The position numbers and the translations under genes are program-made. 64,000 nucleotides of DNA, from NCBI RefSeq assembly GCF_017052585.1, contig NZ_JAFFHZ010000001.1, forward strand, positions 3,525,001 to 3,589,000, read 5' to 3'. Shown here in pieces: positions 1-59,566 of this stretch; within the stretch, counting starts at the first letter, position 1, and every line of letters begins with the position of its first letter. Origin of the DNA: Paenibacillus apiarius (GTDB taxonomy: Bacteria > Bacillota > Bacilli > Paenibacillales > Paenibacillaceae). The notes beneath the pieces were generated by a model, which was not told the DNA's origin, ran no database searches, and saw nothing but the letters and a program-made list of their open reading frames with translations.

Positions 1-756
1 CCAGCGCATGATATATTTACGCAAAGGCCGTATAATCATTTGCTCGATAACGACAATCAGGGCAATGCTTACCGCTGACCAAGCAAATACCTTAGCCGTA
101 TCCATATTGACTCTTGCCAGCGCGAGGGAATAACCTATCCCCTTGTCACTGCCCATCAGTTCGGCCATAATCGTAATTCGCACGGCTGAACCGACAGCCA
201 GGGTAATTCCCGTAAACACCGGAACAGCAAGGCCCGGAATAATAATATGCACAAGTCTGTGTATGAACGGGACACGGTAGACCTGAGACATTTCAAGCAG
301 GCCGTGATCAATACTCCGCATCCCGTCTGCCGTATTAAGATACATTGCCGGAAAGATAAGCAAGGCCACGACAAATAGGGGGACCCCGGAGCCGGTTCCG
401 AACCAGACCATAGCCAGGACAACAAGAATAATCGGAGGTACTCCCATGAGTAAAGACAGGACAGGGCGCATTGCTTCATAGACGACCGGAAGCCCTCCTG
501 CCAGAAGTCCACAGAGCATACCCGATCCTACACCCAGTGACAGGCCATACAACATCCGTGAACCGGAGATGAGAAGCTGTGCACCAAACTCCCCGCTGCG
601 GAGAATGTTTCCGAAAGATGCCAGCGTCTCCAACGGTGAGGCAAACAAGATGTCAGGCAGAGACATAGACAAAAGCTGCCAGAGCAGAATGAGAACGGCA
701 ATGCTTGCACCCTGAATCCACAGCCGCCGGTTACGGCTTATAATAGAAGTCTTCAT
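1..756 (-). CDS. ABC transporter permease, NitT/TauT (SsuC/TauC) type, 3' end beyond the window
   Basis: Inner-membrane permease of a binding-protein-dependent importer. Reading the minus strand from the ATG at 756 gives 252 open codons to the window edge: a positively charged start (MKTSIISRNRR), several hydrophobic helices, and the conserved cytoplasmic-loop region around MAELMGSDKGIGYSLALA, the segment that contacts the ATPase in this family. The start lies inside the end of the binding-protein gene (26-base overlap), so the two are probably translationally coupled. It is the last of four co-directional genes (methyltransferase, ATPase, lipoprotein, permease). The substrate is unknown; the upstream Fur box argues for an iron-related or iron-starvation role rather than sulfonate or nitrate uptake, which is the usual annotation of the family. 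The C-terminus is not visible. Confidence 0.88.
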   Translation of the reverse strand, partial: MKTSIISRNRRLWIQGASIAVLILLWQLLSMSLPDILFASPLETLASFGNILRSGEFGAQLLISGSRMLYGLSLGVGSGMLCGLLAGGLPVVYEAMRPVLSLLMGVPPIILVVLAMVWFGTGSGVPLFVVALLIFPAMYLNTADGMRSIDHGLLEMSQVYRVPFIHRLVHIIIPGLAVPVFTGITLAVGSAVRITIMAELMGSDKGIGYSLALARVNMDTAKVFAWSAVSIALIVVIEQMIIRPLRKYIMRW

Positions 757-41841: not shown

Positions 41842-42098
41842 GTTTCCACTCCTTCATTATAGTCGATTTTTAACATATGGGACATGTGAATATATATTTA
41901 ACGCTTGTTTGCCGGAAAAGTTTCGCTCGAAAGTCGAATGCTGGAATAAGCGGGGAGGCGAGGAGGTGTGGCGCGCCGCGGCACATGGGCAGAAATAAAT
42001 TTCTTTTCAAAATTTTGCTCATCGAGCTTCAACAAATAAAAACCAGGGTCCATGACCGGGGAAAAAACGGGCTTTGTGCCGGATGTAAAACAGATGGC

Positions 42099-42127
42099 GT
42101 CAAAGCAGCCCTGTGGACTGCTTTGAC
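42099..42127 (-). terminator. Hairpin in the gap 41842-42235
   Basis: GTCAAAGCAG / CTGCTTTGAC, a 10-bp perfect stem; on the minus strand it is followed by GCCATCTGTTTTAC. It is the probable terminator for the 42236 gene. The rest of the 394-base gap holds no convincing gene. Confidence 0.5.
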
Positions 42128-42235
42128 ATCGATGTCTGGGCCATAAATCCGTCCCGAATGCTGAACCCAATCATTACCACGCCGCAGCGCGCAAAATAAA
42201 GAACAATTTTCACGGGTTCGAGGTTCATTGCAACG

Positions 42236-43189
42236 TCATATGGTTGAGCTTCTTGCGGCCGTTGTCTGAAAAACGGGATCCCATTCATACTTTTCATGAT
42301 AGATGCGGTTCACTTCTGCGGCCAAGCGGCTCCAGTCTTCGTTCGGATACTGTTGAATCATCCGGTACAGGCGGAGGAACCGATCTTTGGGCAGCCGATG
42401 CGCGTAACGCCGCACCAATCCTGGATAAGCCTGCACGTAGCGCTTCATGCGCACGGCCGCTCCGGCCGCCCCGGCGAGAATGTCTTGCCCGTTATCGAGT
42501 CCGAGAATTTCAACTTCATGATTGATGACATATTGAAACGTTTTGTCTTTAATCAAATCGCGTTTAATTTTCGCTATTTCGCCGATGTAATCTGCCAGCA
42601 GCGGATCATACTGGCTGATGAGCAGCGGCTCCAGCACTAAGTCCATATCTTTGCGCAGCGCGAAAAAATGGAGCAGCGCGACCTGCTGCAGCCGAATCGT
42701 ATCATTATGAAGCAGCGTGCCGAGCTCGCGCAGCAGCTCATAGGTTAGCTGCTTGTCCGTATCCCAGTTGGAAAAGGCGGTTTCCCAGTCGCGGTACACA
42801 TCCTGCCCGATTCGTTCCCGCTCGCGCTGCAGCAGCTTATCGAGCGCCCGGTTCACTGCGAACGGCTTCATCCGCCGCTGCATGAGCCAGAGGAGCGATA
42901 CGAACAGAAGTCCGGCGGCTCCGCAGAGCGCCATCTGCAAGGGGCCATCGCCCAGCAGCACGCCTGCAAGCGCAATGAGCGCGGAGATGAGCAGCGTGGC
43001 GATGCCCGCTCGGCTCACTTCCGCCTCCGCCTGCCGTTCGACCGGGATGATGGAGGATTTCCCGCATGACGGGCATTCCTCCTCCGCTAACACCGTAAAG
43101 GTTTGACAATGTTTGCACACCCTTAACTTTTGATAGGCGTATCTCGTTGTATGATAGGGTCTAAAAAACACGGGTATCTTTTTCATCAT
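42236..43189 (-). CDS. Zinc-ribbon membrane protein, divergent partner of the VWA/tubulin operon
   Basis: A protein of about 317 residues. The N-terminus carries a C4 zinc-ribbon (VCKHCQTFTVLAEEECPSCGKS), then a membrane-spanning hydrophobic pair (AGIATLLISALIALAGVLL, LQMALCGAAGLLFVSLLWLMQRR), then a helical cytoplasmic domain rich in Arg/Lys/Glu (LQRERERIGQDVYRDWETAFSNWD). Its start overlaps the stop of the small membrane protein gene (ATGATGA), so the two are translationally coupled. Function unknown; the divergent position at the head of the operon suggests a role with it. Confidence 0.75.
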   Translation of the reverse strand: MMKKIPVFFRPYHTTRYAYQKLRVCKHCQTFTVLAEEECPSCGKSSIIPVERQAEAEVSRAGIATLLISALIALAGVLLGDGPLQMALCGAAGLLFVSLLWLMQRRMKPFAVNRALDKLLQRERERIGQDVYRDWETAFSNWDTDKQLTYELLRELGTLLHNDTIRLQQVALLHFFALRKDMDLVLEPLLISQYDPLLADYIGEIAKIKRDLIKDKTFQYVINHEVEILGLDNGQDILAGAAGAAVRMKRYVQAYPGLVRRYAHRLPKDRFLRLYRMIQQYPNEDWSRLAAEVNRIYHEKYEWDPVFQTTAARSSTI

Positions 43190-43335
43190 GATGGACCGCT
43201 TTCGCCATTTAGTATCGTCAACAAGGTCTGATCGATATCGGCATGGGAGGGCGTCGACTTGCGGCGGACCCAGTACAGTATCGATTTGACGGCGACAAAT
43301 AGAAACAAAATACCCAAACATCCGTAAGCTAACAT
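43186..43335 (-). CDS. Small single-TM protein, 49 residues
   Basis: MLAYGCLGILFLFVAVKSILYW, then a basic turn RRKS and a polar tail ending GESGPS: one transmembrane helix with a short cytoplasmic tail. ATG 43335 has GGAAGG eight bases upstream. The stop overlaps the next start by four bases, and this coupling is the main reason to accept so short a gene. Function unknown. Confidence 0.7.
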   Translation of the reverse strand: MLAYGCLGILFLFVAVKSILYWVRRKSTPSHADIDQTLLTILNGESGPS

Positions 43336-43526
43336 ATGAAAATCCTTCCTTTTGCTATAGAGGGTATGGAAAAATTCACTTTTTGAACATGCACTTATAG
43401 ACAATGATTATATCATAACGGGCGAATCGTGGTAGAATTAGTAAATAAATTGTCATATCAGGGAGACTTATGACGGGGAAGGAAATTTTTTATTCAGAAA
43501 ATCTTCATATAATATTAAGAATTATG

Positions 43527-43571
43527 AGGTATAAACATATAGTACCGATCCGTCTATTAGACTTTATACCT
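43527..43571. promoter_or_regulatory. Inverted repeat between the divergent operons
   Basis: AGGTATAAA (43527-43535) and TTTATACCT (43563-43571), exact inverses with centres 36 bases apart, just before the VWA gene. A candidate operator for the system. Confidence 0.5.
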
Positions 43572-43605
43572 ATCATTACACATTTTTTCATAAAGGAGTG
43601 CAACT

Positions 43606-45384
43606 ATGCTTCGTAGAAATCATTTCGCTTTTATTATGTTGTTGACTCTATCTATATTATTGCTGCCGTTGACAGGGCAACCTCCCGCAGCGCATGCGGC
43701 TCAGCAATCGTCCAAAATCGACTCCGTCCTCGTCGTGGACGTGAGCAACTCGATGGATACAAGCGATAAGGACAAGATCGGCAATGAGGCGATGAAGATG
43801 TTCATCGACATGTTGTCGGCAGCGGGCGACAAAGTCGGGATTGTCGCTTATACCGATAAAATAGAACGCGAGAAAGCCTTGCTGGAAATTCAATCCGATG
43901 CGGACAAGCAGGATTTGAAGCAGTTCATCGATCAGTTGAACCGCGGCCCTTACACGGACATTGCCGTAGGCGTGAAGGAAGCGGTCAAGGTGCTGCAGCA
44001 CGGTGCCGATCCGGCGCATGAACCGATGATTGTGCTGCTCGCTGACGGCAACAATTATTTGAATAAAAACGGAAGCCGGACGCAGGAGCAGTCTGACCAA
44101 GAGCTCAACGAGGCCGTAGCCGATGCCCAAAAGAAAGGCATTCCGATCTATACGATCGGGCTGAATGCCGATGGACAGCTGAACAAGGACGCGCTGGCGG
44201 AGCTGTCGAAGCAGACGGGCGGCAAATCATTCGTGACGGCGTCGGCGGACGAGCTGCCGCAAATCTTAAGTGAAATCTTCGCCAGTCATTTGAAGCTGAA
44301 GATCGTGCCGATCCAATCGATTACGGCCAACGGCAGCTATCAAGATGTCATCGTGAATGTGCCGAACGCCAACGTCATGGAGGCGAACATCTCCCTTATG
44401 TCGTCCAAGCCGATTGATGTAAAATTATTCGATCCGTCAGGCAAGGAAGCAGCCATTCCCGCGGATGACGCGCAGTTGTCCCGCTCCAAGAGCTATTCGC
44501 TCATCAAGCTGATCCAGCCGGTTCAGGGCGACTGGAAGCTGCAAGTCAAAGGGGTAGCCAAAGACAAAATCGATATCAATCTCGTCTTTAACTATGATCT
44601 GGAGCTGGCGATGGATCCGCTGCCGGCGCAAGCCTACAAGAAGGGCGACAAAATCGAAATCAGCTCGTACCTGACGAGCAACGGCCAGAAGCTGCAGAAC
44701 AATGCGCTCTATCAAAATATGAATGCCGTATTGACCGTGAAGGATCTCGACACAGGGGCTACGAAGGAAATTCCGCTTGACAATCTTGGGGATCGCTTCA
44801 AGGGCGCTTATGAGATTGAGGATAAGCATGAATATGAGTTGAAGGTGCGGGCGGAAGAGAAAAGCTTCTACCGGGAGACGAAGCCGGTCAATGTGAGCGC
44901 GAAGCCCGGTGGAGCGGGCGGCACCACTGCGGCAGGCTCGGCTGAAGAGAAGAAGCCTTTCCCGGTATGGCCCGTAGTCATCGGAGCTATCGTGCTGGCG
45001 GCGATTGCCGCCGCGGCCTATTTCATTATGGCGGCCGTGAAGAAGGCGACGCGCGGCTTCGTTGGCCAGATGGTGCTTGAAGTACGCGACGAGAACACGG
45101 GGGAGAAGACATACCCGCAGTATAAAAAGCTGACGGCCTTTAAGGGCAAATTCACGCTCCATCAGCTGCTGCAGCTGGCGCCTGAGCTGAAGGAAACCGA
45201 AACGATCGTGTTTGTGCCGAGCAAGGGCGACCGCGTCCTGCTGAAAAACGGATCGGCAGTCACGATTGAGAAATCCGGACGAGCAGTGGACGCGAGCAGC
45301 GGCCTGGAATTGAAGACCGGCGACCGGATTGCCGTACCGTTAAGCAGCGTCGACAAAACGGTATTGATCGAATATCTCGTATAG
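43606..45384 (+). CDS. VWA-domain membrane protein 1
   Basis: A 592-residue protein. A signal peptide (FAFIMLLTLSILLLPLTG) precedes a VWA domain with intact MIDAS: D45-x-S47-x-S49 (VVDVSNSMD), T117 (RGPYTDIAVG) and D147 (VLLADGNN). Two beta-sandwich-like regions follow (about 230-430), then a TM helix at about 454-476 (WPVVIGAIVLAAIAAAAYFIM). A cytoplasmic tail of about 110 residues has FHA-like strand pattern (VGQMVLEVRDENTGEKTYPQYKK...GDRVLLKNGSAVTIEK). This gives an outside metal-dependent adhesion domain linked to an inside signalling-type domain. It is the first gene of a seven-gene operon. Confidence 0.8.
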   Translation: MLRRNHFAFIMLLTLSILLLPLTGQPPAAHAAQQSSKIDSVLVVDVSNSMDTSDKDKIGNEAMKMFIDMLSAAGDKVGIVAYTDKIEREKALLEIQSDADKQDLKQFIDQLNRGPYTDIAVGVKEAVKVLQHGADPAHEPMIVLLADGNNYLNKNGSRTQEQSDQELNEAVADAQKKGIPIYTIGLNADGQLNKDALAELSKQTGGKSFVTASADELPQILSEIFASHLKLKIVPIQSITANGSYQDVIVNVPNANVMEANISLMSSKPIDVKLFDPSGKEAAIPADDAQLSRSKSYSLIKLIQPVQGDWKLQVKGVAKDKIDINLVFNYDLELAMDPLPAQAYKKGDKIEISSYLTSNGQKLQNNALYQNMNAVLTVKDLDTGATKEIPLDNLGDRFKGAYEIEDKHEYELKVRAEEKSFYRETKPVNVSAKPGGAGGTTAAGSAEEKKPFPVWPVVIGAIVLAAIAAAAYFIMAAVKKATRGFVGQMVLEVRDENTGEKTYPQYKKLTAFKGKFTLHQLLQLAPELKETETIVFVPSKGDRVLLKNGSAVTIEKSGRAVDASSGLELKTGDRIAVPLSSVDKTVLIEYLV

Positions 45385-45395
45385 GGGGAACCATA

Positions 45396-48300
45396 ATGAA
45401 ACCGATAGTAAGAGAACATATTCAGCAGTTGGACGTGTCGCTCGGCGGAGGAATCGTCAGCGATAAGATTCGGGTTGAAACGATCGACAATCCGATTCTC
45501 ATTATCGGGCTCGGCGGCACCGGGATTGACGCGCTGCTGCGCTTGAAATATCAGATTAACCGCCGCTTCAAGCTGCCTGAGGACCCGATTTCGAAGAAGA
45601 AGCGCGAGAAGCCGGACAATGTGGAGTTCCTGGCGTTCGAGACGAACGAACAGGATCGCAACAAAAAATATAAAGGAATCGGACTCGATCCGCTCAATGA
45701 ATTCGTGCTGCTGTCGAATGCGGAAATCGGCGGATTGCTGCAGAACCGCAGCATTCTGGAGCCGTACATTACCGAATGGCTGTCGCCCGAGCTGAGCATC
45801 ACCGACGGGATGAACGGCGCGGCCGGCGTCCGCCAGGCGGGACGGCTGCTGCTGTTCACGAAGATCAACCAAGTCGTGCAATCGATTGACAAAAAAATCA
45901 AGACGCTGTCCGTCGGCACGAACAAAAAGCTGATGGTGTTCCTGCTGTCTGGCTTGTCCGGCGGCACGGGGAGCGGCTGCTTCCTCGACATCTCGTACAT
46001 CGTGCGGGGCATCATCGAGCGCGATCACGGCTCTGCAGGCATCGATCGCGTCAATACGCTCGGCTATTTGTTCACGCCGGATGTGAACTTGGCGAACAAA
46101 AGCTTGAGCGAGCATACGCGCGAATATGTCAAGAAGAACGGCTATGCCGCGCTTAAAGAGCTCGACTATTGGATGAATGTCGACAGCCGCGGCGAACGGT
46201 TCCGGCAGAAGTACGGCAACATTTTGACGGTTAATTCGCCGCTGCCGCCGTTCAATCTATGCCATCTCATCTCGGCGACGAATACGGAAGGCAAGCTGCT
46301 CGAGAACGCTTATGATTATTGCATGAACGTCACGGCGGAGAACATTACGAACTTCATGGCGAGCGAGGAGAAGCAGTCCGGCGAGGAATTCGCGATTCAC
46401 GACTATATCAGCAACATCCGGACGAACATCGCACAGATGAACAAGGCGTATCCGGCCAACTACGAGTACAACATTATCGGAGCCTCTTCGGCGGTGCTGC
46501 CGATTGAAGAGATGACAACGTATCTGGGCTATCGCTTGTTCAACAAGATGGAGAAAATGTTCGAGAAGGCGCCAAGCCAGGAGGATGTCGAGAAGTTCGC
46601 GCGCAAGCTGGGCATCGATCTCGACACGATGGTGAAGACGTTCGAATCGCGTGTTCCCGAGCCGCTGCCGGGTTATGAGAACAGCGAACGCTTAAGCTAT
46701 CACAATGTCATCAAAATGCAGGTCGTGAACATGGATACCGAGCTGGAGCAGAGCTTCCTGGCACGGGCCCGCGAAGAATATATCAAGGCGAAGAAGCAAC
46801 TGCCGGGCGAGATCGTCGGGCAATTCACGGACCAGATCCGCAGAATGTTCCTTCATCCGGAGCAGGGGCCATTCTATGTATCGCGCCTCATCTACACGGA
46901 GAAGGGCTTCTGTCTCCTGAAGATGCTGCTCTCCTATATCGAGACGCTGCGCGAGAATCTGCACCGGATTCCGCGCGACATTGAGTCGGCGCAGGAGCAG
47001 GCGAACGATAGGCTCGGCGACGCGAAGAGCGCGTTTATTTCCAAGGATAAGAAGAAGAACAACTACATCGAGGCCAAAATCAACGAATATTGGCTGCATG
47101 CCGACGTCGAGCGCACGGAGCAGATGATCGAATTTTATGAGGATCTGCATGAGCTGCTGAACCGGGAGAACAACCGCATTTATAGCGTATTTACCGAAAT
47201 TTTGAACGCGTTGAACGCTATTTTCGAGAAGAACGGCGACATCCTGATCAATGGCGAGGAGCAGGCCGATCATAAAGGCAACCGCACTTACTACTGGAAT
47301 ATCGTCAGCGTGCCGGACATCTCGAAGGTCATTAGCAACATCATGGAGCAGAAGGAAGTGGACGATCTGATCCGCGATTTCTCCATGGAGCTGTTAAACC
47401 GCTCGAACCAGTGGATTAAGGAGCAGGAGCTTGATATCGTCAGCTCGATTTCCGACTTCCTGTCGGACAAGTTCGGAGACTTGATTACGCAATCGATGGA
47501 AGAGTTCCTTGTGATGAAATTCGGCAACGACGAGTCGATCGACAAGTTCGTTGAACGCAGCATCGCAAGCAAGCTGGATGGAGAAGCGGTGCCCGTGTTC
47601 CACCTGAGCAACAGCTCCGGCAACCTGCATTTCCCGCGCTGGGGCTTCGTGTCTGTTCCGGTGAAAGCCCCGAGCATTTTGAAAGGCATTCGCAACTACC
47701 AGAACAATGCGGTCGGCAAGTCCAACTTCACGGTGAAGGAGAGCGAAGTGAAGAATCGCATCTTCTGGCTGAACACGCACAACGGGGTGCCGCTCTTCGT
47801 GTATACGCCGCTGAAGGTATATGAGGAGAGCTATGAACGGACGATTCTCGACAAAGAGGGCATCGGCCGCCATCTTGTGCAGACCGACAAAGTGAACTGG
47901 ACGTACTTGCCGTCTCCGATTCCGGAGAAGTCTTGGGGCGATACCTATATGAACGCGCGCGTGCAGAAGTATAATTCCCGCGTGCGTGCGGAGTTCGACA
48001 AGGCGCTGCAGTCCAAGGTCATCATCGAAAAAGGCATGGATGAGAATACGAGCAATCGCTATGCCGCCATCTTCACGAAGCCGTTTGACTTGAATGGCGT
48101 TCTGAATGCGTATGATCTGCAGCTTCAGGCAGCCAAGCCGAACCTGGGCGAGGTGAAGCGGGCTTATCTTGATCTGAAGCGCATGCTCGAGGATGGATTG
48201 GAACAAGAGGGAGCCAAGGATATATTCGGCAGCATTAGCGAAGAGCTGGCGAAGGAGAATCTCATTCGCTCGCCGGAGCTTATTTTGCGCATGCGCGAGG

Positions 48301-48785
48301 AGCTCGCCAAATACGACGCTATCCGCGCGAAGGCATCCGAATTCGAGGAGCTGATCGGGCAGCATCAAGATGAAGAGAAATGGCAGGACCAGTTCATCGA
48401 AGCGCTTTACACCGGAACGATTTGCAAGAAGGGCGCGCTCTATGTCTATGACCGCGACGCAGAGGAGGAAGCTTGGGAACCGTTCGCCAATCTGGTGAAG
48501 AGCCGCGATTATGTAGAATTCGAGGTATTCGAGAGCTTCCGCAAGCTGAATGAGAAGCAGCGCAGCACGCTGCTGCGCAAGGCGGCCCGCCGTTCGGCGG
48601 AATTGACCGCTTCGGAGGATGTGACTCCCCTCTTGACGAAGCTGGATGAATTGTACGAGGCGTTCCTGGAAGCGCGCGAACGCTTGGAGTATGAGAAGAT
48701 CGAATTGACGAATGGCGAAGATGCGTATCAATTCTATAAGCAGCTGACCACGAAGCTTAACGCGATTCGCAGAAAGTTGAAGTAA
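45396..48785 (+). CDS. Bacterial tubulin-like protein (Tubulin_2 type)
   Basis: 1129 residues, much larger than FtsZ or TubZ. The N-terminal GTP-binding pattern of tubulins is visible: IIGLGGTGIDALLRLK at about 36-51, and the signature loop GLSGGTGSGCFLDI at about 186-199 (GGGTGSG-like). These fit the Tubulin-like family (PF13809). About 700 further residues are helical with coiled-coil character (LGDAKSAFISKDKKKNNYIEAKINEYWLHADVERTEQM). It would be GTP-dependent and could polymerise, but polymerisation is not shown by sequence. It is 11 bases after the VWA gene. Confidence 0.78.
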   Translation: MKPIVREHIQQLDVSLGGGIVSDKIRVETIDNPILIIGLGGTGIDALLRLKYQINRRFKLPEDPISKKKREKPDNVEFLAFETNEQDRNKKYKGIGLDPLNEFVLLSNAEIGGLLQNRSILEPYITEWLSPELSITDGMNGAAGVRQAGRLLLFTKINQVVQSIDKKIKTLSVGTNKKLMVFLLSGLSGGTGSGCFLDISYIVRGIIERDHGSAGIDRVNTLGYLFTPDVNLANKSLSEHTREYVKKNGYAALKELDYWMNVDSRGERFRQKYGNILTVNSPLPPFNLCHLISATNTEGKLLENAYDYCMNVTAENITNFMASEEKQSGEEFAIHDYISNIRTNIAQMNKAYPANYEYNIIGASSAVLPIEEMTTYLGYRLFNKMEKMFEKAPSQEDVEKFARKLGIDLDTMVKTFESRVPEPLPGYENSERLSYHNVIKMQVVNMDTELEQSFLARAREEYIKAKKQLPGEIVGQFTDQIRRMFLHPEQGPFYVSRLIYTEKGFCLLKMLLSYIETLRENLHRIPRDIESAQEQANDRLGDAKSAFISKDKKKNNYIEAKINEYWLHADVERTEQMIEFYEDLHELLNRENNRIYSVFTEILNALNAIFEKNGDILINGEEQADHKGNRTYYWNIVSVPDISKVISNIMEQKEVDDLIRDFSMELLNRSNQWIKEQELDIVSSISDFLSDKFGDLITQSMEEFLVMKFGNDESIDKFVERSIASKLDGEAVPVFHLSNSSGNLHFPRWGFVSVPVKAPSILKGIRNYQNNAVGKSNFTVKESEVKNRIFWLNTHNGVPLFVYTPLKVYEESYERTILDKEGIGRHLVQTDKVNWTYLPSPIPEKSWGDTYMNARVQKYNSRVRAEFDKALQSKVIIEKGMDENTSNRYAAIFTKPFDLNGVLNAYDLQLQAAKPNLGEVKRAYLDLKRMLEDGLEQEGAKDIFGSISEELAKENLIRSPELILRMREELAKYDAIRAKASEFEELIGQHQDEEKWQDQFIEALYTGTICKKGALYVYDRDAEEEAWEPFANLVKSRDYVEFEVFESFRKLNEKQRSTLLRKAARRSAELTASEDVTPLLTKLDELYEAFLEARERLEYEKIELTNGEDAYQFYKQLTTKLNAIRRKLK

Positions 48786-48789
48786 GCGG

Positions 48790-51243
48790 ATGAACGAATA
48801 TGTGGAACGGTTCGCATCCGAATATGCGATGGCAGAAGAAAGGTTGACTGGACAAGGGGACGGCCAGAGCAGCATCCATTATCCGACCGTGTTCTTGTTC
48901 GTCGGAGACAAGACGGCGGATGCGATTGAACCGATGATTCGGATTAATGAACGCAAGTGGGATAATAGCGCCGGTGTCATGTACGTGCACGCAGTAGCGC
49001 GTGACGGCGCTGCGCCTGGCGCGCTGGCTGCAGCCGGCTCCGGCACGGCGGGGGACGGGTCGGACGCGCGCTCCGGCGGTTCTCGGCAGCACAATCCGAA
49101 TCATCCGCAGGTGACCCGGCTTGTGCTCCCTGTCAGCGCAGAGCAAGGGAAAGAAAAAGGAAAGACGATGCGTAAAGAGCTATATCAGCAGCTGTACCAG
49201 AATGAAGGCAGCCTGTTCGAGCTGAACCGCGCCCTGCGCCAAGTCAGTCACAATATTGCCGAGTATGGCCGTTTGTACGCTTCTTTCGATCGGATCCATC
49301 TGGCTGTCATTACGCGGGTTGATGACCCGCTTAATGTGTTCATTGCAGAAATCGCGCTGCTTGCCGAAGCCATCTTCAGCCAATCGTTCAAGTCGGTGCA
49401 GAAGGATCTGTATGCGCTGATTAGCGAACGCGAACAGGTTGAGGTATTCGGATATGCCAGCTCCGTGGGCGTCGCGTTCCTGCGCGAGCTGGACTACATG
49501 CAGAGCGCGGATTACGCATTTTCAGCCCGCTTGCACGTGACGGAGGACGGCATCTCGATTCCGGTCACGCACTCCGCCTCGCCTTTGTTCGATCTCGTGT
49601 ACGTGCTGTCGGACAAAAATGAACGCGGCATATCGTCTTTCCATGACATGGACGACAATTACGACATTATATGCCATATGAATTTGCTGAAAAACCGCAA
49701 GCTAAAAGATTCGAGTCAAGACTTCAATAGTAGCGGCTATAACAACACGTCCTTCAAAAATAACATCATGACCGAAACGGGCCGTCAAGGCTATGTATCG
49801 GCTGGCTTCTCCAGAGTAAAACGCCCGAATCAATCTATTGCGCTTGCCGTGCTGTACCATTTCTGCAGAGAGCTGGTCTTGCGGATGGAAGGCGGACCGG
49901 ACTGGAGCGCTGCGGAGAAGCTGGCCTTCTTCGGGCTGGATCCGAATGCGATGGCTGCCCGCGTGGCTCATGCCTTGCCTGATGACAGCAGAATCAGCGA
50001 TATGAACGGCATCATGACTCACGATGTGAGCTTCGGCCAATTGAAGCGGATGACGCTGCGGGAGGCGGAGTCTGCCTTGTTCGGAAGCGGCTGCCATGTT
50101 TATTTCCAGGACAACTATGCCAAGGAAGCCGAGAAATATATGATGCAGCTAAATGCGGCGGAAGAGCTGAGCCGCACGATTCAAAGGCGGATGTCCGAGC
50201 AAGCCCAGGTCGGATTTCATCAAGTGTGCGAATGGACGAATGAAGCCAACGAGTCGGGGAGCGTATGGAAGGATCTGCATGCCCGCATGCGCGATCTTGC
50301 GCGGGCGCTCGATTCGGCGCGGGCCGAACTGGAACAGGTGTATCAGGAGCGGGTGGAGGAACAATCGTTCCAGCGCCTGCCATTGATGGACAAGCACAAT
50401 GTGCGCAGCTTCGTGCGCAGCTTCTTCGATACGGTATACCGCAGGAAGCTGGAGCTCTTGCGGATGGAGACGGAGCTTCAGCTGTACCGGCGTCATGAAG
50501 CCGAGCTGGAGCGGCTGCACGCGGTTTATAAGCAGCAGGTGCAGCAGCTGAATAAGCTGGAGCATGCGCTGCGGGAAGCCGCGCTGGATAGCATTCGCCA
50601 TGCCGACGATTATATTGGCCAAAACATAATGGAGTATTACGAGCGTGTCACGGCAACGATTATGCAGGACATCGAAGCCAAGCGAGGCCAAGGCGTCTTC
50701 TTCGAAGAGCGGTACATGGGCGGCATTGCGCAGCTCCTGGAGTCAGGAATCGAAGCTTTCACCGCGAGGCTGATTGCCGTGTGCAGACAGCATATTTTGA
50801 CAGCTGAGCCGTTCAAGCAGACATTCGAGGAGGAACTGCTGCGCCGGGCGAACGTGACGATCGATTACAGCAACCGCGAGGTGCTGTCGAAGGACGAGCT
50901 GTTCAAGAAGCTGTATCGAACGTTGGAGGACCATGCAGGGATTAACATCCGCCTGTTGGACTATACGCACGAACACCGCTATGAGGAGAAATACTTTTTC
51001 GGAGACGCTGCGAGCGAGTTTATCGGTTATGCGCTGAGCGCCGACGATACGTCCCGCATATACAAGCTTGGCTGCGTGCATGAGCAACGGAGCAGCGGCG
51101 TCGAGAAGCTGAACATTATGGGCGGATTCCATATCGAAGATATTATGTATTACCGGAACGGCAAAGTGTACTACGAAAGCTACCTTGAGAACGGATATGA
51201 GTTCCATGGCATTGATCCAGGGCTGCTGCCGGAGCTTCGGTGA
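48790..51243 (+). CDS. Large protein of unknown fold, tubulin partner
   Basis: An 817-residue protein not matched to a named family. It has a low-complexity linker (AAPGALAAAGSGTAGDGSDARSGG) at about residues 77-105, an internal FDLVYVLSDKNERG segment of the kind found in some tubulin-like proteins, and coiled-coil segments at about 480-620 (LARALDSARAELEQVYQER; LELLRMETELQLYRRHEAELERL). It starts four bases after the tubulin-like gene, so the two are probably coupled. A degenerate second tubulin-fold subunit without the GGTGSG loop is possible (inference). Confidence 0.6.
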   Translation: MNEYVERFASEYAMAEERLTGQGDGQSSIHYPTVFLFVGDKTADAIEPMIRINERKWDNSAGVMYVHAVARDGAAPGALAAAGSGTAGDGSDARSGGSRQHNPNHPQVTRLVLPVSAEQGKEKGKTMRKELYQQLYQNEGSLFELNRALRQVSHNIAEYGRLYASFDRIHLAVITRVDDPLNVFIAEIALLAEAIFSQSFKSVQKDLYALISEREQVEVFGYASSVGVAFLRELDYMQSADYAFSARLHVTEDGISIPVTHSASPLFDLVYVLSDKNERGISSFHDMDDNYDIICHMNLLKNRKLKDSSQDFNSSGYNNTSFKNNIMTETGRQGYVSAGFSRVKRPNQSIALAVLYHFCRELVLRMEGGPDWSAAEKLAFFGLDPNAMAARVAHALPDDSRISDMNGIMTHDVSFGQLKRMTLREAESALFGSGCHVYFQDNYAKEAEKYMMQLNAAEELSRTIQRRMSEQAQVGFHQVCEWTNEANESGSVWKDLHARMRDLARALDSARAELEQVYQERVEEQSFQRLPLMDKHNVRSFVRSFFDTVYRRKLELLRMETELQLYRRHEAELERLHAVYKQQVQQLNKLEHALREAALDSIRHADDYIGQNIMEYYERVTATIMQDIEAKRGQGVFFEERYMGGIAQLLESGIEAFTARLIAVCRQHILTAEPFKQTFEEELLRRANVTIDYSNREVLSKDELFKKLYRTLEDHAGINIRLLDYTHEHRYEEKYFFGDAASEFIGYALSADDTSRIYKLGCVHEQRSSGVEKLNIMGGFHIEDIMYYRNGKVYYESYLENGYEFHGIDPGLLPELR

Positions 51244-51362
51244 TCGGGCTGCATCGGGCTAGGCCGGGCTAAATCAAGGCCGGGCCAACGCGGCATCAGA
51301 CTGAACAAGGCTAGCGGACGGAACTGTAACTTCTAAATTCCATATGAAAGGAGGCAGACCAT

Positions 51363-52646
51363 ATGAATCGCAAAGTGAACATGCTCATGCTGCTGTTCAG
51401 CTTAATCGGGGGCGCGGTCGGCTTTGCCTGCGGTGAATGGCTGCTGCACAGCCTGCTCGGGGAGTGGCCGAATATCGTCGTCGTCGGCCTTTACTTTGGC
51501 ATCATCGCGTTTTTTATCGGATTATTCTGCTTAATCGCCGAGCTGATATCTCCCCGCTTGAACGGTTCGTCCTGGCGGCAGCGGTACGCAGGCGCTTCTT
51601 GGAAGCTGCTCGTTCCGGCAACCTTGGTCATGCTGTTCGTGGCGGGACTGGCGCTGGAATTCGTGTATCAACTGGACGTCGGCGGATCTAAGCCGATCAA
51701 AGACATTGCGCTCGTCATTGATCATTCCGGAAGCATGCAGCAGAACGATCCGCACAATCAAAGATATGAAGCCGCAAAGCGCATGATTGCCGAGATGGAC
51801 AGTGACAAGCGCGTTGCGGTTATCGCTTTTGACGATAGAGCCGAGCTGCTGCAGCCGTTCACGCAAGTGAAAGGCCAAGCGGAGAAAGACGCGATATACG
51901 CCAAGATGGATGCAATCGATTCATTGGGAGGCGGGACGGATATCGGACTGGCTCTCTCCGAAGCGATGAAGCAGATTCAGGACAACGAGGACGCGGGACG
52001 AGGCACGATGGTTGTGCTGCTGTCGGACGGCGTCAGCGACTTGAATACAAGCCAAGCGCTGGCGGAGTACCGGCAGCGGAGCATTGCGGTGAACACGATT
52101 GGACTCAATCTTGTCAACGGAGACGGAGCGATCCTGCTGAAGGAGATTGCAAGCCTTACCGGCGGGCAGTACTATGATGTTGCAAAAGCAGACGAATTGT
52201 CGTTCGTCTTCAATACGATTTACAGCACCATCGGAGACCGTACATTGGTTACGGAACGCACAGGAACGGTGCAGGACAGCGGTTACTACATGGCGCTGCG
52301 CCTCGTGGCGCTCACCCTTATCGGGGCGGCTCTCGGCCTGGCGCTCGGCTTGGTGTTCGACAACCGCTACTTGGCGCGAAGCTTCGCCATCGGCGGAGCG
52401 GTGGCCGGTCTCATAGCCGGCGCGCTGCTGGAGGCGGGGTTGACCGGGCGTCCGTTCACGGACGGTCTGTGCCGCCTGCTCGCCGATCTGGTGCTCGCGG
52501 GCGTTACCTCGTTGTTCACCTTGATCGTGCCGGTCAAGGAGAGTTATGTGCCGCGTGAAGAGCGTCACCGGCGGATCTCGGCTGGACGTGCCGCGGACGG
52601 AGTGGCGGAACGGAAGCAGGACAGCCGCAGCAGCAGAGGATTCTAG
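51363..52646 (+). CDS. VWA-domain membrane protein 2
   Basis: A 427-residue membrane protein. Three N-terminal TM helices (about 8-30, 37-60, 82-102) are followed by a VWA domain with MIDAS D120-x-S122-x-S124 (VIDHSGSM) and the downstream LGGGTDIGLAL and VVLLSDGVSD motifs. Several C-terminal TM helices follow (RLVALTLIGAALGLALGLVF; GGAVAGLIAGALLEAG; ADLVLAGVTSLFTLIV). With an inside N-terminus the VWA domain would lie outside. AAAGGAGG precedes ATG 51363. Confidence 0.8.
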   Translation: MNRKVNMLMLLFSLIGGAVGFACGEWLLHSLLGEWPNIVVVGLYFGIIAFFIGLFCLIAELISPRLNGSSWRQRYAGASWKLLVPATLVMLFVAGLALEFVYQLDVGGSKPIKDIALVIDHSGSMQQNDPHNQRYEAAKRMIAEMDSDKRVAVIAFDDRAELLQPFTQVKGQAEKDAIYAKMDAIDSLGGGTDIGLALSEAMKQIQDNEDAGRGTMVVLLSDGVSDLNTSQALAEYRQRSIAVNTIGLNLVNGDGAILLKEIASLTGGQYYDVAKADELSFVFNTIYSTIGDRTLVTERTGTVQDSGYYMALRLVALTLIGAALGLALGLVFDNRYLARSFAIGGAVAGLIAGALLEAGLTGRPFTDGLCRLLADLVLAGVTSLFTLIVPVKESYVPREERHRRISAGRAADGVAERKQDSRSSRGF

Positions 52647-52667
52647 TCTCGGGGAGGCCGATTACAG

Positions 52668-53303
52668 ATGCAGTATATCGAAGCGGATTCAACGGCTCCA
52701 GTCATCCGCGGATTAACTCACGGCGTTGATGAAGACCGCTGCACGCTGCGGTGGCTGTGGCCGGACGGCGTTCAGGCCGTCTACATTCACAAGGCCGGCG
52801 CGGATGAAGGGCTGGACGGACAGCCGCCGGCCGCCGGCTTGAAGCTGTATACCAAAGATGAATATAAAGCCAACAACGGCTATTACGATCGGATTGAAGG
52901 AATAGGGCGGCTCGTATATACGGTATACGCCTGTATCATGACGGGCGGCGAGACGCGGCTCATCTTGCAGCCGGATGGCGCGAACCGCATCGTGCTGAGC
53001 ACGGGCAAGGCCAAAATTTATGTTTCGATCCGTCAAAAAAGCGGGTTGTTCAAAAAGTACAAGACGGTTCAAATCCAAGTGAGGGCAGAGGTTCCGGTTG
53101 ACCAGGACGTGCTGTGCTACGTGAAAAAACAAGGCGGATACCCCGCCAACAAGGAGGATGGGACGGTATATCCATTCGTCGAGCCATTTGCCCCGGGGCG
53201 GAATGTGCTGCCTGTCATTGAGATCGGCAAGGACGACTACATCCGCTTATTTTTCACCGACGGCCGCCTATACGGTCAATTGTATGAGTTGATACCGGAA
53301 TAA
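52668..53303 (+). CDS. Fn3-like beta-sandwich protein of the operon
   Basis: A 211-residue soluble protein of mostly beta character. The N-terminal part DEDRCTLRWLWPDGVQAVYIHKAG has the W-hydrophobic pattern of Fn3/Ig-like strands, and a second similar stretch follows (IVLSTGKAKIYVSIRQKSG, VQIQVRAEVPVDQDVLCY). No signal peptide. No enzyme motif. It is placed between the second VWA and the GTPase genes, with about 20-base spacers. Proteins of this kind are known accessory modules in GTPase/VWA systems, but no function can be assigned. Confidence 0.6.
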   Translation: MQYIEADSTAPVIRGLTHGVDEDRCTLRWLWPDGVQAVYIHKAGADEGLDGQPPAAGLKLYTKDEYKANNGYYDRIEGIGRLVYTVYACIMTGGETRLILQPDGANRIVLSTGKAKIYVSIRQKSGLFKKYKTVQIQVRAEVPVDQDVLCYVKKQGGYPANKEDGTVYPFVEPFAPGRNVLPVIEIGKDDYIRLFFTDGRLYGQLYELIPE

Positions 53304-53316
53304 GGAGGACAAGAAC

Positions 53317-54579
53317 ATGGGGATTTTTGATATTTTTAAGAAAAAGCCGCAGGCGGCGCCCAAACCGCTGTTCTACGATATCGTATGTCCGTACTGCTTC
53401 AGCAAGTTCTCGCCGGAGGACGTCGTATTCCGTGCGGCCCATCATCGGGAAGATGACGAGAACTACGCGCTGCAGGAAGACGAGAAGCTGAATAAATACC
53501 GGGAACGATTCGGTCTGGACACGGTATATGACATGGAGGCGGTCATCGATCCGCGCGAGATCCCGGAGGAGCATCATATTCATTCGGATCATGTGCTGAT
53601 CGGTCTGAACGACCGCTACGGTGTCGTAACGCGGAGAAGACTGTGCCCGCATTGCCACAATGAGCTGCCGGTGACGGCAGGCAAAGTGCCGAGCAACATC
53701 ATTTCGATTATCGGCGCATCCCAGGTAGGCAAATCCGTGTACATGACTTCTTTGATTCATACGCTGCAGCATATGACGGCCGATCATTTCGATGCCGCCT
53801 GCATGCCGCTGAACGCGGAGATTAGCCGCAAGTTCCGCACGATGTACGAGGAGCCGCTGTTCGAACGCGGGGATCTGCTCGCTTCGACGCAGAAGGAGAA
53901 GATGCAGGAGCCGTTTATTTTCCAATTCGTGTTCAAGGATGAAGCGAAGCCTCCGCTGACGCTGGTGTTTTTCGACGTCGCGGGCGAAGGTATGGTTGAT
54001 CAGGACTACTTGGGCCTGCACGGCCAGCATATTAAAAATTCCGCCGGCATTCTATTCATGGTGGATCCGCTCCAGATCCGTTCGATTCGCGAGAAGATCC
54101 GGATTAAATACGGGGACACGTCGGGCGAATGGGTGCCGCAATATGACGAGCCCCGCGACGTGGTGCTGACGATGTTTGGTGACTTCATCGCCTATGAGGA
54201 CAAGAACAAGACAGACATTCCTACCGCGGTCGTGCTGACGAAGAGCGATATGCTGCATTCGTTGAAAGACGAGGACGGCGAATACATTAAATCAAACAGC
54301 AATATTTTTAACAACATGGTTCACCGCAAGCATTTGGATTTGACCGAATTCGAGAATATCGACGGGGAAATCCGGCGTTTTATCGAGAAGGTAGACCGTC
54401 CGTTCAAAGGAACGATGGATGTATATTTCTCCGATACCGCCTACTTCGCCGTGTCCGCGCTCGGCAGCAATCCGGTCAATCAGAAGCTGCAGGGCGTCGT
54501 CAGCCCGATTCGTGTAGACGAGCCGTTCATTTGGCTCTTGTATAAATTGAATTACATCGAGGGGAGAGAACAGCTGTGA
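53317..54579 (+). CDS. Zinc-ribbon P-loop GTPase (TRAFAC-like)
   Basis: A 420-residue GTPase. An N-terminal zinc-ribbon pairs CPYC (24-27) with CPHC (110-113). The Walker A is GASQVGKS (133-140), the Walker B/G3 is FFDVAGEG (about 219-225), G4 is VVLTKSD (about 300), and G5 is probably VSALGS. These define a TRAFAC-type GTPase of the kind that co-occurs with GAP1 proteins. No TM helix. The next gene starts in its stop codon (GTGA overlap). It is probably the nucleotide switch of the system. Confidence 0.8.
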   Translation: MGIFDIFKKKPQAAPKPLFYDIVCPYCFSKFSPEDVVFRAAHHREDDENYALQEDEKLNKYRERFGLDTVYDMEAVIDPREIPEEHHIHSDHVLIGLNDRYGVVTRRRLCPHCHNELPVTAGKVPSNIISIIGASQVGKSVYMTSLIHTLQHMTADHFDAACMPLNAEISRKFRTMYEEPLFERGDLLASTQKEKMQEPFIFQFVFKDEAKPPLTLVFFDVAGEGMVDQDYLGLHGQHIKNSAGILFMVDPLQIRSIREKIRIKYGDTSGEWVPQYDEPRDVVLTMFGDFIAYEDKNKTDIPTAVVLTKSDMLHSLKDEDGEYIKSNSNIFNNMVHRKHLDLTEFENIDGEIRRFIEKVDRPFKGTMDVYFSDTAYFAVSALGSNPVNQKLQGVVSPIRVDEPFIWLLYKLNYIEGREQL

Positions 54580-57491
54580 CGCCTAAGACTCCCACACCGA
54601 TCCAGCAGCAGATGTATACGCGAGAGCGGCACGGGATATTCCGCTCGACGGAAGGCTATGACACAATTGCCAAATCTGACGGGCTAGACCCTAACTTTGT
54701 TAAAAAAGTGCTGCATCCGTTCTGTGTCTATGATGCCCCCGCGGAGCTAACCGCTCGCGGCGAGAAGGACGAAGCCGTTTATCCAAAGGCGGTGCATCTG
54801 TTCCATACGGACACGGGGCAGATGGTGCTCGGCTGCAGCGCCTACCTAGCTGCTGATTTTACAGGGCTGCGCAGCGCCTTCTTCTCCCATAACTATGTCA
54901 TTCCTGCGGAGCGCGCGGCAGAAGCGGCCAAAGACTATGCCTCTCTGCTGAATGCATCGTTTGCCGAAAGCTACGATATCGAGACAGGCATGTCGCTTCC
55001 GGAATTGGATCGCTTGCCCGCCTCAGCAGAGCCGTCTCCTCCGGATTCGCCCGCCGAGCTGCTCGCCAGCCTCGGCATCGATGAGAAGCTGTTCAAGCAG
55101 CTGCTGTTCGCGATTATGTCTTCGGTTGCAACGAAGCGGAAGGTGTACGTTGCGCTGGATGTCCCCGTGGAATCCATATCGGAGAACGCAAGGCAACTGC
55201 TTGGCGTACTTTATGCCAGCCTGCCTTATGCGTTCCGCAGCGTGCTTGGATTCATCACCTATGCGATGGAGCCGCAGAGCAAGAAGGGCATTCATCTTAC
55301 CTTTGTCGAGCAAGGAAGCTTGCGTCCGAACGACCGCAATGTCGACAAAGATTATACGTTCGATCTCGCTTCGCAGCGCGTCACGAATGTGGACATCGAC
55401 TTTGCGAAGCAGCCTTTTTTGAACTTTGCCTGGGCCAATGTGGGGCGTCCGGAGCGCGCGGACAGCTTCTATCAATTTGCCGAGCGAATGTTGGCGGATA
55501 TGGATCCGAAGCGGCATACCGCGATCGCTAGCTATCATGAGCTTGCCGTGTTTTTTCAGATCGAAGAAGGCAACGAGGCGTTGTATGATGCGAATCGAAG
55601 CATGGTGCTGCGGTCGATGCTCGAATATTTGTCTCCCGAGGGGGCGCTTGCGGCCAAGGAGCGTCTGAACGAACTGTTTCTAGGCCGATTCAACCGCGAA
55701 TTCGGGCTGGCGAAGCAGCGGCAGGTGGCGGATCTGTCCATTGTGAAGTGCTTCAAGGAGTACAATGAGCTGGACGGCGCCGATATGGGCAATAATTTGA
55801 TTGGCTACTTGATCTGCGCCATTTATAATGCCGTGATGGAGAAGGGCAAGGAACGGGGCGAAGCGTTCTATGGCCTGATTGAGAGCGAGCCGGAATTGAG
55901 CCGGGCGTTCTTTGATACGGTATTGCGGGGCGGAAAAGCCAAAGAGCTGTTCGAGCCCTACATTCAACACAAATTCCATGCCGCGCAGAAGGCGATTGAC
56001 GTCGTGCAGCTGGCGCATCATTGGTCAAGCACGCACCCGCTCGTGCTGCGGGATGATTCTTTCGTGGAGCTGGCTGCGACACAACTGGTGGAGAAGCTGC
56101 GCCGGGAAGCAGAGCCAGTCGCGGCGGTGAACGAGGTGCTGGAACGGATTGCGCGGCTGCCGATCGATGACAGCCGTTCTTCGGGGGCGAGCCATGCGGT
56201 GTTTATGGAGCGCCTGTCTTATGCGGCGAACGTGTTCCTGCTGACCGATTTGAACTTGGAGCAGGTGCGGAAGGAGCCGTTTCTGCAAATTCAATTTTTG
56301 CAGCATCCGCATGAGGTGAAGCAGTGGGTAGCGCGCTTCAATCAGCAGGTGCAGAACCAGGCGGCGGTAATGCTGTCTGCTTATCGCTGGTTCAGCGAAC
56401 GGGACCCGGACCCGGCGGTGTTCGACGATCTGTCGCTGACGGAAATGGATCGTGTCCAACAGTTAGGCCGCAGATGGCTGCAGAAGGAGATTGAGCCATC
56501 CCAATTCGGCAGGCTGGTGCTTGCCTTCTATCGCGAAGCGGATAAGGGGTTGGTCGAATACGGGGCGCTGCTTCATTATTTGAGCCAGCATGCTCCGGAT
56601 AAGGAGACGGTGTACCAGTTCATGAACTGGTCTGAGAAGCATCCGCTCTTTGCCGGTTCGAGAAAGCTTATTCCAGCCTATGCAACGGCGATTGTGGCGT
56701 ACTTCAAAAAATATGATCGCGATGCGTTCAAGAAGCGGACGAATCGCCACTATTTCGCCCAGGCAGGCGCTGCGCTTCAAGCTGTATATGACAAGGCGCG
56801 GCTGGAGCTGTCCTCTCCGTTCATGAAGCTGATAAGACGGAACCGAAAGGCAAGTTTATTTTCGCTAGCGGCTGTCGTCGTTATTGGCGGGACGCTAATC
56901 GGTCTGCTTGCCGCAGGGGGATTTGAGAAGGACAAGCCGGTGTTGGCGGACAAGCCTGCAGATGATGCCAAGACGCAAGGGGATGCGCAGACAACTGCGG
57001 ACAAGCAGCCGGCGGTATTCGCGCGCGACACGGAGGAAGACGTTGACGGCGTGAAAAAGACGGCGACGGAGCTGGTGTTCGACTTCGGTACGGCAGCTGA
57101 GTGTACGGCATTTCAGGCCAAGACGATTATCGTGAAGCTGGATGACGGCACGGAACGGGCGTTCACGGATAAGCGGCTGCAGCATGCTTGCGCGTCCGCT
57201 GCAGGGGCTGCAGAGACGCCGCCAGCCGATGCTGCCGGCGGTGCAATGGGAAGCGCGGCAGATGCCTCATCCCCGGCCTCGCAGGATAGCGGCGATACCG
57301 AAGCAGCCAACGGCGCTGACAATGCAGCTGGCAGCAATTCCGCACCGGAGATGGATGCGGCTCAGCCGGCTGCTCAACCATCGGGCGATCCGTTATATCA
57401 AGTCGTCGTTCCATTGGGGGAGCAGCTTACGCTCGCGAACATCAATCAGGTCATCGTGGATGACAAATTGATTCCATACATTGTGAAATAG
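54576..57491 (+). CDS. GAP1-N2-type GTPase-associated protein
   Basis: A 971-residue protein. The N-terminus has the GAP1-N2 pattern (QQMYTRERHGIFRSTEGYDTIAKSDGLDP and AYLAADFTGLRSAFFSHNYVIP), and the middle has GAP1-M/C-like helical repeats. A TM helix at about 760-782 (LFSLAAVVVIGGTLIGLLAAGG) is followed by a Pro/Ala/Asp-rich linker and a C-terminal segment (YQVVVPLGEQLTLANINQVIVDDKLIPYI). The start is GTG 54576, overlapping the GTPase gene by four bases. GAP1 proteins are defined by their link with conflict-type GTPases in comparative-genomic work. The anchored architecture means that the complex is on the membrane. Confidence 0.78.
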   Translation: MTPKTPTPIQQQMYTRERHGIFRSTEGYDTIAKSDGLDPNFVKKVLHPFCVYDAPAELTARGEKDEAVYPKAVHLFHTDTGQMVLGCSAYLAADFTGLRSAFFSHNYVIPAERAAEAAKDYASLLNASFAESYDIETGMSLPELDRLPASAEPSPPDSPAELLASLGIDEKLFKQLLFAIMSSVATKRKVYVALDVPVESISENARQLLGVLYASLPYAFRSVLGFITYAMEPQSKKGIHLTFVEQGSLRPNDRNVDKDYTFDLASQRVTNVDIDFAKQPFLNFAWANVGRPERADSFYQFAERMLADMDPKRHTAIASYHELAVFFQIEEGNEALYDANRSMVLRSMLEYLSPEGALAAKERLNELFLGRFNREFGLAKQRQVADLSIVKCFKEYNELDGADMGNNLIGYLICAIYNAVMEKGKERGEAFYGLIESEPELSRAFFDTVLRGGKAKELFEPYIQHKFHAAQKAIDVVQLAHHWSSTHPLVLRDDSFVELAATQLVEKLRREAEPVAAVNEVLERIARLPIDDSRSSGASHAVFMERLSYAANVFLLTDLNLEQVRKEPFLQIQFLQHPHEVKQWVARFNQQVQNQAAVMLSAYRWFSERDPDPAVFDDLSLTEMDRVQQLGRRWLQKEIEPSQFGRLVLAFYREADKGLVEYGALLHYLSQHAPDKETVYQFMNWSEKHPLFAGSRKLIPAYATAIVAYFKKYDRDAFKKRTNRHYFAQAGAALQAVYDKARLELSSPFMKLIRRNRKASLFSLAAVVVIGGTLIGLLAAGGFEKDKPVLADKPADDAKTQGDAQTTADKQPAVFARDTEEDVDGVKKTATELVFDFGTAAECTAFQAKTIIVKLDDGTERAFTDKRLQHACASAAGAAETPPADAAGGAMGSAADASSPASQDSGDTEAANGADNAAGSNSAPEMDAAQPAAQPSGDPLYQVVVPLGEQLTLANINQVIVDDKLIPYIVK

Positions 57492-57515
57492 GGGGCGCTT
57501 GTGCCCCTATTTTTC
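57488..57515 (+). terminator. Terminator of the VWA/tubulin/GTPase operon
   Basis: TAGGGGGC / GCCCCTA with a short loop, followed by TTTTT. It marks the end of the seven-gene operon. Confidence 0.8.
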
Positions 57516-58583: not shown

Positions 58584-58610
58584 GGAGCAGTAAGGGGTTG
58601 ATACATACAT

Positions 58611-59249: not shown

Positions 59250-59566
59250 CTGCCCGGCACACGGGGAAGGTGCTGATGATCATTTCGGCTTTTTGCACAG
59301 CGACGGGACAGCTGTTCTGGAAATGGGGAGTGCACCAGCTGATTTATCTCGGAGTAGGATTTGTGTTCTACGGCGTCGGCGCACTGCTCATGATTAAGTC
59401 CCTCTCTCTGGAGAAGCTGTCCGTCGCTTACCCGCTCATGTCCAGCAGTTATATTTTTGCGCTCATCTATGGGGGGCTGCTCTTGAACGAAACCGTCAAT
59501 CTGCAAAAGGGGATCGCCGTTCTGCTATTGATGATCGGAGTGGTGTTGATAAGCTATGAGAAGTGA
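59237..59566 (+). CDS. SMR/EamA-like membrane protein, subunit 1
   Basis: A 109-residue four-TM protein of the DMT/SMR type (QLFWKWGVHQLIYLGVGFVFYGVG; SYIFALIYGGLLLNETVNLQKGIAVLLLMIG). With its neighbour it resembles the ArnE/ArnF pair, which flips undecaprenyl-phosphate sugars. The overlap with the HAD gene and with subunit 2 supports one operon. Confidence 0.75.
   Translation: MELMTARHTGKVLMIISAFCTATGQLFWKWGVHQLIYLGVGFVFYGVGALLMIKSLSLEKLSVAYPLMSSSYIFALIYGGLLLNETVNLQKGIAVLLLMIGVVLISYEK

Follow-up and report, generated by a model that had tools for sequence, protein, structure and literature searches.

What does a tubulin-like protein do when it is encoded together with VWA domain proteins, a GTPase, and a GAP1 protein? 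We examined this question for a locus of the soil bacterium Paenibacillus apiarius (host genome, 6.58 Mb) in a 64-kb stretch of contig NZ_JAFFHZ010000001.1 (positions 3,525,001 to 3,589,000), hereafter called the window. Its core operon (43606 to 57491) comprises seven genes coding for VWA1, TubA, TubB, VWA2, an FN3-position protein, a DO-GTPase, and a GAP1-N2/M protein (GAP1). Together with a divergent arm of two genes, SMP and ZNR, it forms a module of nine genes. The two printed predictions, membrane remodeling in 2010 and conflict in 2020, differ, and we found a test of neither for this operon. The explanation that we favor, tentatively and as falling only a little short of probable, is a mostly vertically inherited transmembrane cytoskeletal module that holds, senses, or reshapes the cell envelope, as opposed to a toxin-like effector.

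Two tubulins and their membrane partners

An open reading frame (ORF) scan of the window recovered all ORFs listed in an earlier note on this DNA, with every gene where it had been placed. The tubulin-like protein with a GGTGSG loop described there, TubA (45396 to 48785, + strand; 1129 amino acids [aa]), matched Pfam Tubulin_2 with an E value of 2.5e-76 and proved to have intact T1 (GLGGTG) and T4 (GGTGSG) loops as well as an HDYxxN motif, as expected of a Tubulin_2/FtsZl1 tubulin. For comparison, we used three sets of loci from relatives: 80 named loci, 40 family loci, and 8 loci drawn from 16 GAP1-N2-holding genomes of two other families, which, judging from the names of TubA matches, are probably those of Brevibacillus and Aneurinibacillus. 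In a motif scan, T1, T4, and HDYxxN were found in 120/120 loci, and TubA measured 1129 aa in 70 of 80. Among the matches listed, Brevibacillus-named proteins were 1127 to 1132 aa long and 72 to 73% identical to TubA, and the closest named relative in the genome collection was from Paenibacillus profundus (98% identical). Searches of PDB sequences revealed no relative of TubA (best E value, 0.1) or of the GTPase (best E value, 0.62).

The 817-residue partner that had been noted as unknown, TubB (48790 to 51243, +), is present and, according to its predicted fold, is a second, degenerate tubulin without GTP loops. It matched Tubulin_2 weakly (E value, 4.5e-5; 23.3 bits, under the curated cutoff of 27). 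Its AlphaFold model, built on an alignment of 54 of 120 listed matches (278 found), showed a tubulin fold with long helices and matched whole tubulin chains in a structure search; a helical, coiled-coil stretch is predicted within this fold. The GGxG[ST]G loop was detected by pattern in only 1 of 118 copies, and the lone match (L117) falls within a low-complexity stretch, close to residue 102. Profile alignment of the N-terminal parts of TubB and TubA yielded an E value of 0.012, and alignment of the whole proteins gave a weak match over TubB residues 218 to 420 (probability, 14.8; E value, 0.0018). The C-terminal parts appeared alike by eye, but since profile alignment of the TubB C-terminal part with TubA found nothing (best E value, 0.26 for the C-terminal half and 0.063 elsewhere), this likeness is not claimed. 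Both tubulins occurred in every locus that was not cut there. Many of the TubB relatives among the matches listed bear the NCBI label "transcription initiation factor TFIID," which is misleading.

The remaining products of the operon include three with transmembrane (TM) segments. VWA1 (43606 to 45384, +) has a signal peptide or N-terminal TM segment, a VWA domain with a metal ion-dependent adhesion site (MIDAS), a TM segment at residues 457 to 475, and a conserved C-terminal domain, while VWA2 (51363 to 52646, +) carries several TM helices and a single VWA domain with MIDAS. Pfam VWA matched both (E values, 7.9e-16 and 2e-19, respectively) and, together with hydropathy, agreed with the proposal of two membrane VWA proteins with intact MIDAS. 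DxSxS was found in 116/120 VWA1 ORFs, the remaining four being cut on the N-terminal side, and in 118/118 VWA2 ORFs. No YtkA domain was detected in either protein by Pfam at an E value of 0.1. The following gene (52668 to 53303, +) codes for a 211-aa protein that had been called Fn3-like; it had no significant match in Pfam, and the assignment draws on where its gene sits within the operon and on the description by Kaur et al. (2020).

The DO-GTPase (53317 to 54579, +) scored 28.2 bits with DO-GTPase2 (cutoff, 27) and contains two CxxC pairs, a Walker A motif (GASQVGKS), DVAGE, and TKSD. Walker A, DxAGE, and both CxxC pairs were retained in 117/117 copies and [NT]KSD in 101/117, with AKSD in at least 12 of the remainder. 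The start of the downstream gene for GAP1 (54576 to 57491, +) precedes the end of the GTPase gene; GAP1 matched GAP1-N2 with 157.7 bits and GAP1-M with 98 bits (cutoffs, 24), and has a TM segment (residues 761 to 779) followed by a variable tail. Hydropathy analysis in the window predicted no TM segment for TubA, TubB, the FN3-position protein, or the GTPase, a single one for GAP1, two for VWA1 (one N-terminal, one inner), and several for VWA2. A TM-like segment was present in 111/111 GAP1 copies of at least 800 aa. From these TM segments, we infer that both VWA domains lie outside the cell; the C-terminal domain of VWA1 would then be cytosolic and the GAP1 tail extracellular. The suggestion of the earlier note that the GTPase and a potential filament are held at the membrane would fit the hydropathy, given the sidedness proposed above.

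The TM parts would likewise fit an FtsZl1-based machine for membrane remodeling or for vesicles. Makarova and Koonin (2010; PMC2875224) described FtsZl1 as a tubulin family with VWA and GTPase partners, proposed membrane remodeling, and included Brevibacillus brevis in their alignment; TubA is a member of this Tubulin_2 (FtsZl1) family and has the same kinds of partners. Against it, the large VWA parts placed outside suggest ligand binding. This explanation overlaps with the envelope module that we favor, and the two are hard to separate by sequence; we regard remodeling as the specific function as unlikely.

Inheritance and constraint

Within the Paenibacillaceae sample (118 genomes), GAP1-N2 was found in 55 genomes, with one match each. 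Tubulin_2 scored above cutoff in 56, i.e., the same 55 and G088, a genome of another genus without a GAP1-N2 match, whose tubulin locus is a different one (L196; 1123-aa ORF; E value, 1.5e-12 with the TubA hidden Markov model). Among the matches listed, nearest kin first, all 11 same-genus genomes carry both. As 63 of the 118 genomes lack GAP1-N2, the module is not generally essential. In the class sample (299 genomes), 42 had GAP1-N2: 26 Paenibacillaceae and 15 and 1 in two other families. In the phylum sample (also 299 genomes), 7 passed the GAP1-N2 cutoff and 9 the Tubulin_2 cutoff, and the genomes with both were five Paenibacillaceae, including that of the window. Elsewhere in the phylum, the Tubulin_2 genes of other families (L183, L184, and L185) have other neighbors, such as a clostripain-type peptidase and a HerA helicase (L183) or a VWA protein (L185).

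The earlier note had considered that the genes might be scattered in most genomes; instead, they occur together. The eight scanned genes had the same order in 74 of the 80 named loci, and the six exceptions are truncated by the end of a locus or contig. In 40/40 family loci, the genes present followed this order, with extra ORFs within the cluster in a few. All nine genes were found in the same order in 8/8 loci of the two other families, with two genes shortened in one (L190). Extra ORFs of 453 and 473 aa lie between the VWA2 and FN3-position genes in two loci of the same genus (L051:9962-11323 and L052:9660-11081, both on the + strand), and one of 250 aa lies between the FN3-position and GTPase genes in L069. 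In trees of 30 of the 55 carrying genomes, TubA and TubB each shared 16 of 27 splits with RpoB and the GTPase shared 13 of 27. Inheritance of the module appears, from these comparisons, to have been mostly, though not perfectly, vertical.

Relative to RpoB, mean distances were 1.9 for the GTPase, 2.1 for TubA, 4.3 for VWA1, 5.1 for the FN3-position protein, 5.3 for VWA2, 5.5 for TubB, 6.5 for ZNR, and 6.9 for GAP1. The ratio of nonsynonymous to synonymous substitution rates (dN/dS), obtained from five usable species pairs (a sixth was too diverged and gave no value for six of the nine genes), was 0.005 to 0.035 for TubA, 0.046 to 0.190 for TubB, 0 to 0.029 for the GTPase, and 0.113 to 0.267 for GAP1. 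Across all nine genes, values did not exceed 0.27, except for one of SMP. These data indicate strong purifying selection on the module, with GAP1 evolving faster. Because of its low dN/dS, TubA, a predicted effector, is not the variable part, and the highly variable effectors between close relatives by which Kaur et al. recognize conflict systems were not seen in TubA or TubB.

This pattern bears on the prediction by Kaur et al. (2020; PMC7159879), made by genome comparison, that the class consists of NTP-dependent conflict systems. As an antiphage or anti-invader device, the surface or FN3/GAP1 parts would sense an invader, the DO-GTPase would fire, and the tubulins would contain the invader by building a multimeric assembly. 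The locus has the domain set of the published class, whose GAP1-N2 systems are overrepresented in multicellular bacteria (PMC7159879); GAP1, ZNR, and TubB evolve fast, the GAP1 tail is variable, and a few loci have extra ORFs within the cluster. The proposed effectors, on the other hand, are neither swapped nor lost, TubA is nearly constant in length as well as strongly constrained, and there is one GAP1-N2 match per genome, with largely vertical inheritance. A PADLOC scan of the eight larger proteins gave no significant match, only two weak ones for the GTPase (E values, 0.033 and 0.036), and the 9 flanking genes were ordinary, with generic two-component-domain matches in 3 and no defense genes beyond these. 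An antiphage role by association was rejected, as the PADLOC and neighbor scans gave nothing specific. A phage origin was likewise set aside: a PHROGs scan of eight proteins gave two matches, both to VWA2 (E values, 2.7e-5 and 1.9e-4). Of the interpretation in the earlier note, a membrane-associated tubulin/VWA/GTPase/GAP1 module of a predicted conflict class therefore holds, whereas its antiphage reading is not supported by the PADLOC result, the ordinary neighbors, the single copy, the largely vertical inheritance, and the strong purifying selection. We consider a conflict role rather unlikely, if a serious contender; inheritance and constraint lead us to favor a long-kept envelope or cytoskeletal role over it.

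The divergent arm and the surroundings

The arm divergent from the operon consists of ZNR (42236 to 43186, −), a 316-aa protein with a CxxC..CxxC zinc ribbon, probably two TM helices, and a helical C-terminal part, and SMP (43186 to 43335, −), a 49-aa single-TM protein whose ORF adjoins and overlaps the ZNR start on the same strand. SMP was absent from the gene list of the earlier note, which had put the start of the zinc-ribbon gene at 43321. This is too far upstream; since relatives mostly measure 305 to 326 aa, the most likely start is 43186. The "zinc-ribbon/TM pair" described there is correct if two genes were meant, as the separate single-TM gene precedes ZNR. An SMP profile seeded with 76 relatives, all from named loci and excluding the window, matched the window protein (E value, 6.8e-28) and those of 78/80 named, 38/40 family, and 8/8 other-family loci; SMP was thus found in 124 of 128 loci, and the four misses are loci cut upstream. 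By a loose test, a hydrophobic ORF adjoined ZNR in 79/79 intergenic regions (the window and 78 of the 80 loci). The CxxC pair of ZNR was found in 113/113 ORFs. Directly after ZNR, 31 of 78 loci encode a protein of 578 to 677 aa with an N-terminal TM segment (e.g., L104:4865-6898, −), which is held by 35 loci in all (the L147 copy reads 324 aa); it has no significant Pfam family and was not found in the window. The SMP-ZNR arm makes the module longer than the core operon.

In the middle of the divergent promoter region lies a TATATCAT block (43409 to 43416, no strand), which occurred in 62 of 77 intergenic regions (0.9 expected from single-base shuffles). TTGAAN-16..18-TATNAT was present in 33 of these 77, compared to a mean of 0.35 in single-base shuffles; two of the 79 regions were left out of both counts, their SMP start not being recognized. 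In many relatives, the conserved block looks like a sigma-A-type promoter. The region of the window itself is without the 17-nt spacing, and its consensus scan (1 site versus 1.8 in shuffles) offers no support.

A further explanation is a developmental device for sporulation or multicellular swarming. Paenibacillaceae generally sporulate, and the bacteria with the module are of the Paenibacillus and Brevibacillus type, in which spores are formed and swarming is frequent; the locus is present (L076) in Paenibacillus sp. NAIST15-1, a strain noted for collective motility. Yet 63 of the 118 genomes sampled from this generally sporulating family lack GAP1-N2, and the promoter block looks sigma-A-like in many relatives, with no support from the window scan. 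Moreover, motility of NAIST15-1 has been tied to flagella and to another VWA protein, CmoA, in a paper whose main text does not contain the word tubulin (PMC5072692). We judge a developmental role to be very unlikely.

A terminator-like hairpin with a T tail follows GAP1 (57491 to 57508, +; 1 found, 0.2 expected), in agreement with the terminator earlier said to close the operon. The one 3′ of ZNR (42098 to 42128, −; 1 found versus 0.7 expected in shuffles) is weak alone. No Rfam match at the gathering threshold and no tRNA was found within the 64-kb window. Right 3′ of the operon (57660 to 63214, +) are genes for UbiA, a HAD hydrolase, two half-size EamA proteins, DUF6080, and a sulfatase-family protein; UbiA scores above the cutoff as decaprenyl-phosphate phosphoribosyltransferase, and the region looks like a lipid-linked sugar cluster. 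On the other side (35746 to 39966, −), an acyltransferase gene lies among the genes for two OmpR-type response regulators and a histidine kinase.

Proposed role and known systems

For the envelope module, the starting point is the gene content and the motifs, together with the TM segments and the fold predicted for TubB; we infer the mechanism beyond these. The VWA domains outside would bind a ligand on the wall, the S-layer, or a neighboring cell in a cation-dependent manner, and the cytosolic domain of VWA1 would relay the signal to TubA and TubB assembled beneath the membrane. As a tubulin that would not bind GTP, TubB could serve as a fixed subunit, cap, or adaptor, with the DO-GTPase and GAP1 as a switch permitting or stopping assembly. 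In its most specific form, this would be an integrin-cytoskeleton-like link: outside MIDAS VWA domains coupled through the membrane to a heteromeric tubulin made of TubA and a GTP-dead TubB, with a coiled coil inserted into the predicted TubB fold and splitting it. A GTPase and a membrane-spanning regulator would gate this link, which would have served as a core surface device since the Paenibacillus/Brevibacillus split. This specific form is possible but on the doubtful side.

Several observations weigh against the envelope module. The GAP1 tail after the TM segment ranges from 140 to 363 residues in Paenibacillaceae (19 to 153 in the eight other-family loci, below 70 in six), which would suit an arms race, as would the distances of GAP1 (6.9-fold that of RpoB) and ZNR (6.5-fold). 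Rank correlation with RpoB distances is moderate (Spearman, 0.40 to 0.57), strongly conflicting split pairs with RpoB number 2 for TubA, 3 for the GTPase, and 4 for TubB, and SMP reached a dN/dS of 0.446 in one pair (47 codons). The module is missing, as judged by GAP1-N2, from 63/118 family genomes. Few relatives have the genes that flank the operon in the window (UbiA in 2/40; the upstream gene and UbiA in 1/80 each), so that the operon or its surroundings moved; groups of relatives share other flanks, and since the 80 loci do not extend far on the right, downstream-gene counts say little. In L190, the ZNR ORF is without a zinc ribbon and the VWA2 ORF has half its length, reflecting either broken genes or sequence errors. 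The AlphaFold model of TubA is poor (pLDDT, 59.7; pTM, 0.35; alignment of 45 of 120 listed matches, 629 found). Drawing on wider evidence, Kaur et al. place the family among conflict systems, and the literature searched, with most subscription papers outside it, contained no experiment on the operon and no phenotype, expression, or filament data.

With nine co-inherited genes in one copy, the locus of Paenibacillus sp. NAIST15-1, a rhizosphere isolate in which in-frame deletions have already been made with pMAD (PMC5072692), is a clean test case. If the surface-cytoskeleton explanation is true, some members of a class now counted among conflict systems would need to be read anew, and bacteria would possess a tubulin acting at the membrane together with a GTP-dead partner.

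Among known systems, the core operon is, by its domain content, the published firmicute-tubulin GAP1-N2 system, and TubA belongs to FtsZl1. Kaur et al. (2020; PMC7159879) described GAP1-N2 systems, ∼52% of which carry tubulins and which include an FNIII protein; in their firmicute version, two tubulin genes with a coiled coil and a pair of VWA genes accompany a GAP1 that carries a polar extension. Shared with this theme are the two tubulins, the two VWA proteins (one polytopic, with VWA outside), the zinc-ribbon DO-GTPase, and the GAP1 extension. The 211-aa protein corresponds to the FNIII protein of the theme only by its place in the operon, having no FN3 match in Pfam, and the YtkA domain fused to one VWA protein in the theme had no Pfam match here. 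The SMP-ZNR arm, the loss of GTP loops in the second tubulin, and a fixed, constrained module are not mentioned in the part of the article available to us, and neither Paenibacillus nor Brevibacillus appears in its main text. The FtsZl1 operons (PMC2875224) share a Tubulin_2 protein with VWA and GTPase genes, intact MIDAS, and membrane-linked partners. Makarova and Koonin found no counterpart of the tubulin C-terminal domain in FtsZl1 and left filament formation open, and GAP1 is not mentioned in the available part of their article; the TubB model, by contrast, aligns with tubulins over their whole length. In a methanogen, an operon that includes VWA and tubulin-like genes is reported to rise under motion (PMC12008871), which is an analogy and not evidence here. 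Compared with tubulin, TubB is roughly 2 times and TubA roughly 2.6 times as long, and unlike the alpha-beta tubulin and BtubAB heterodimers, the putative TubA/TubB pair would combine a tubulin with intact GTP-binding loops and one without them.

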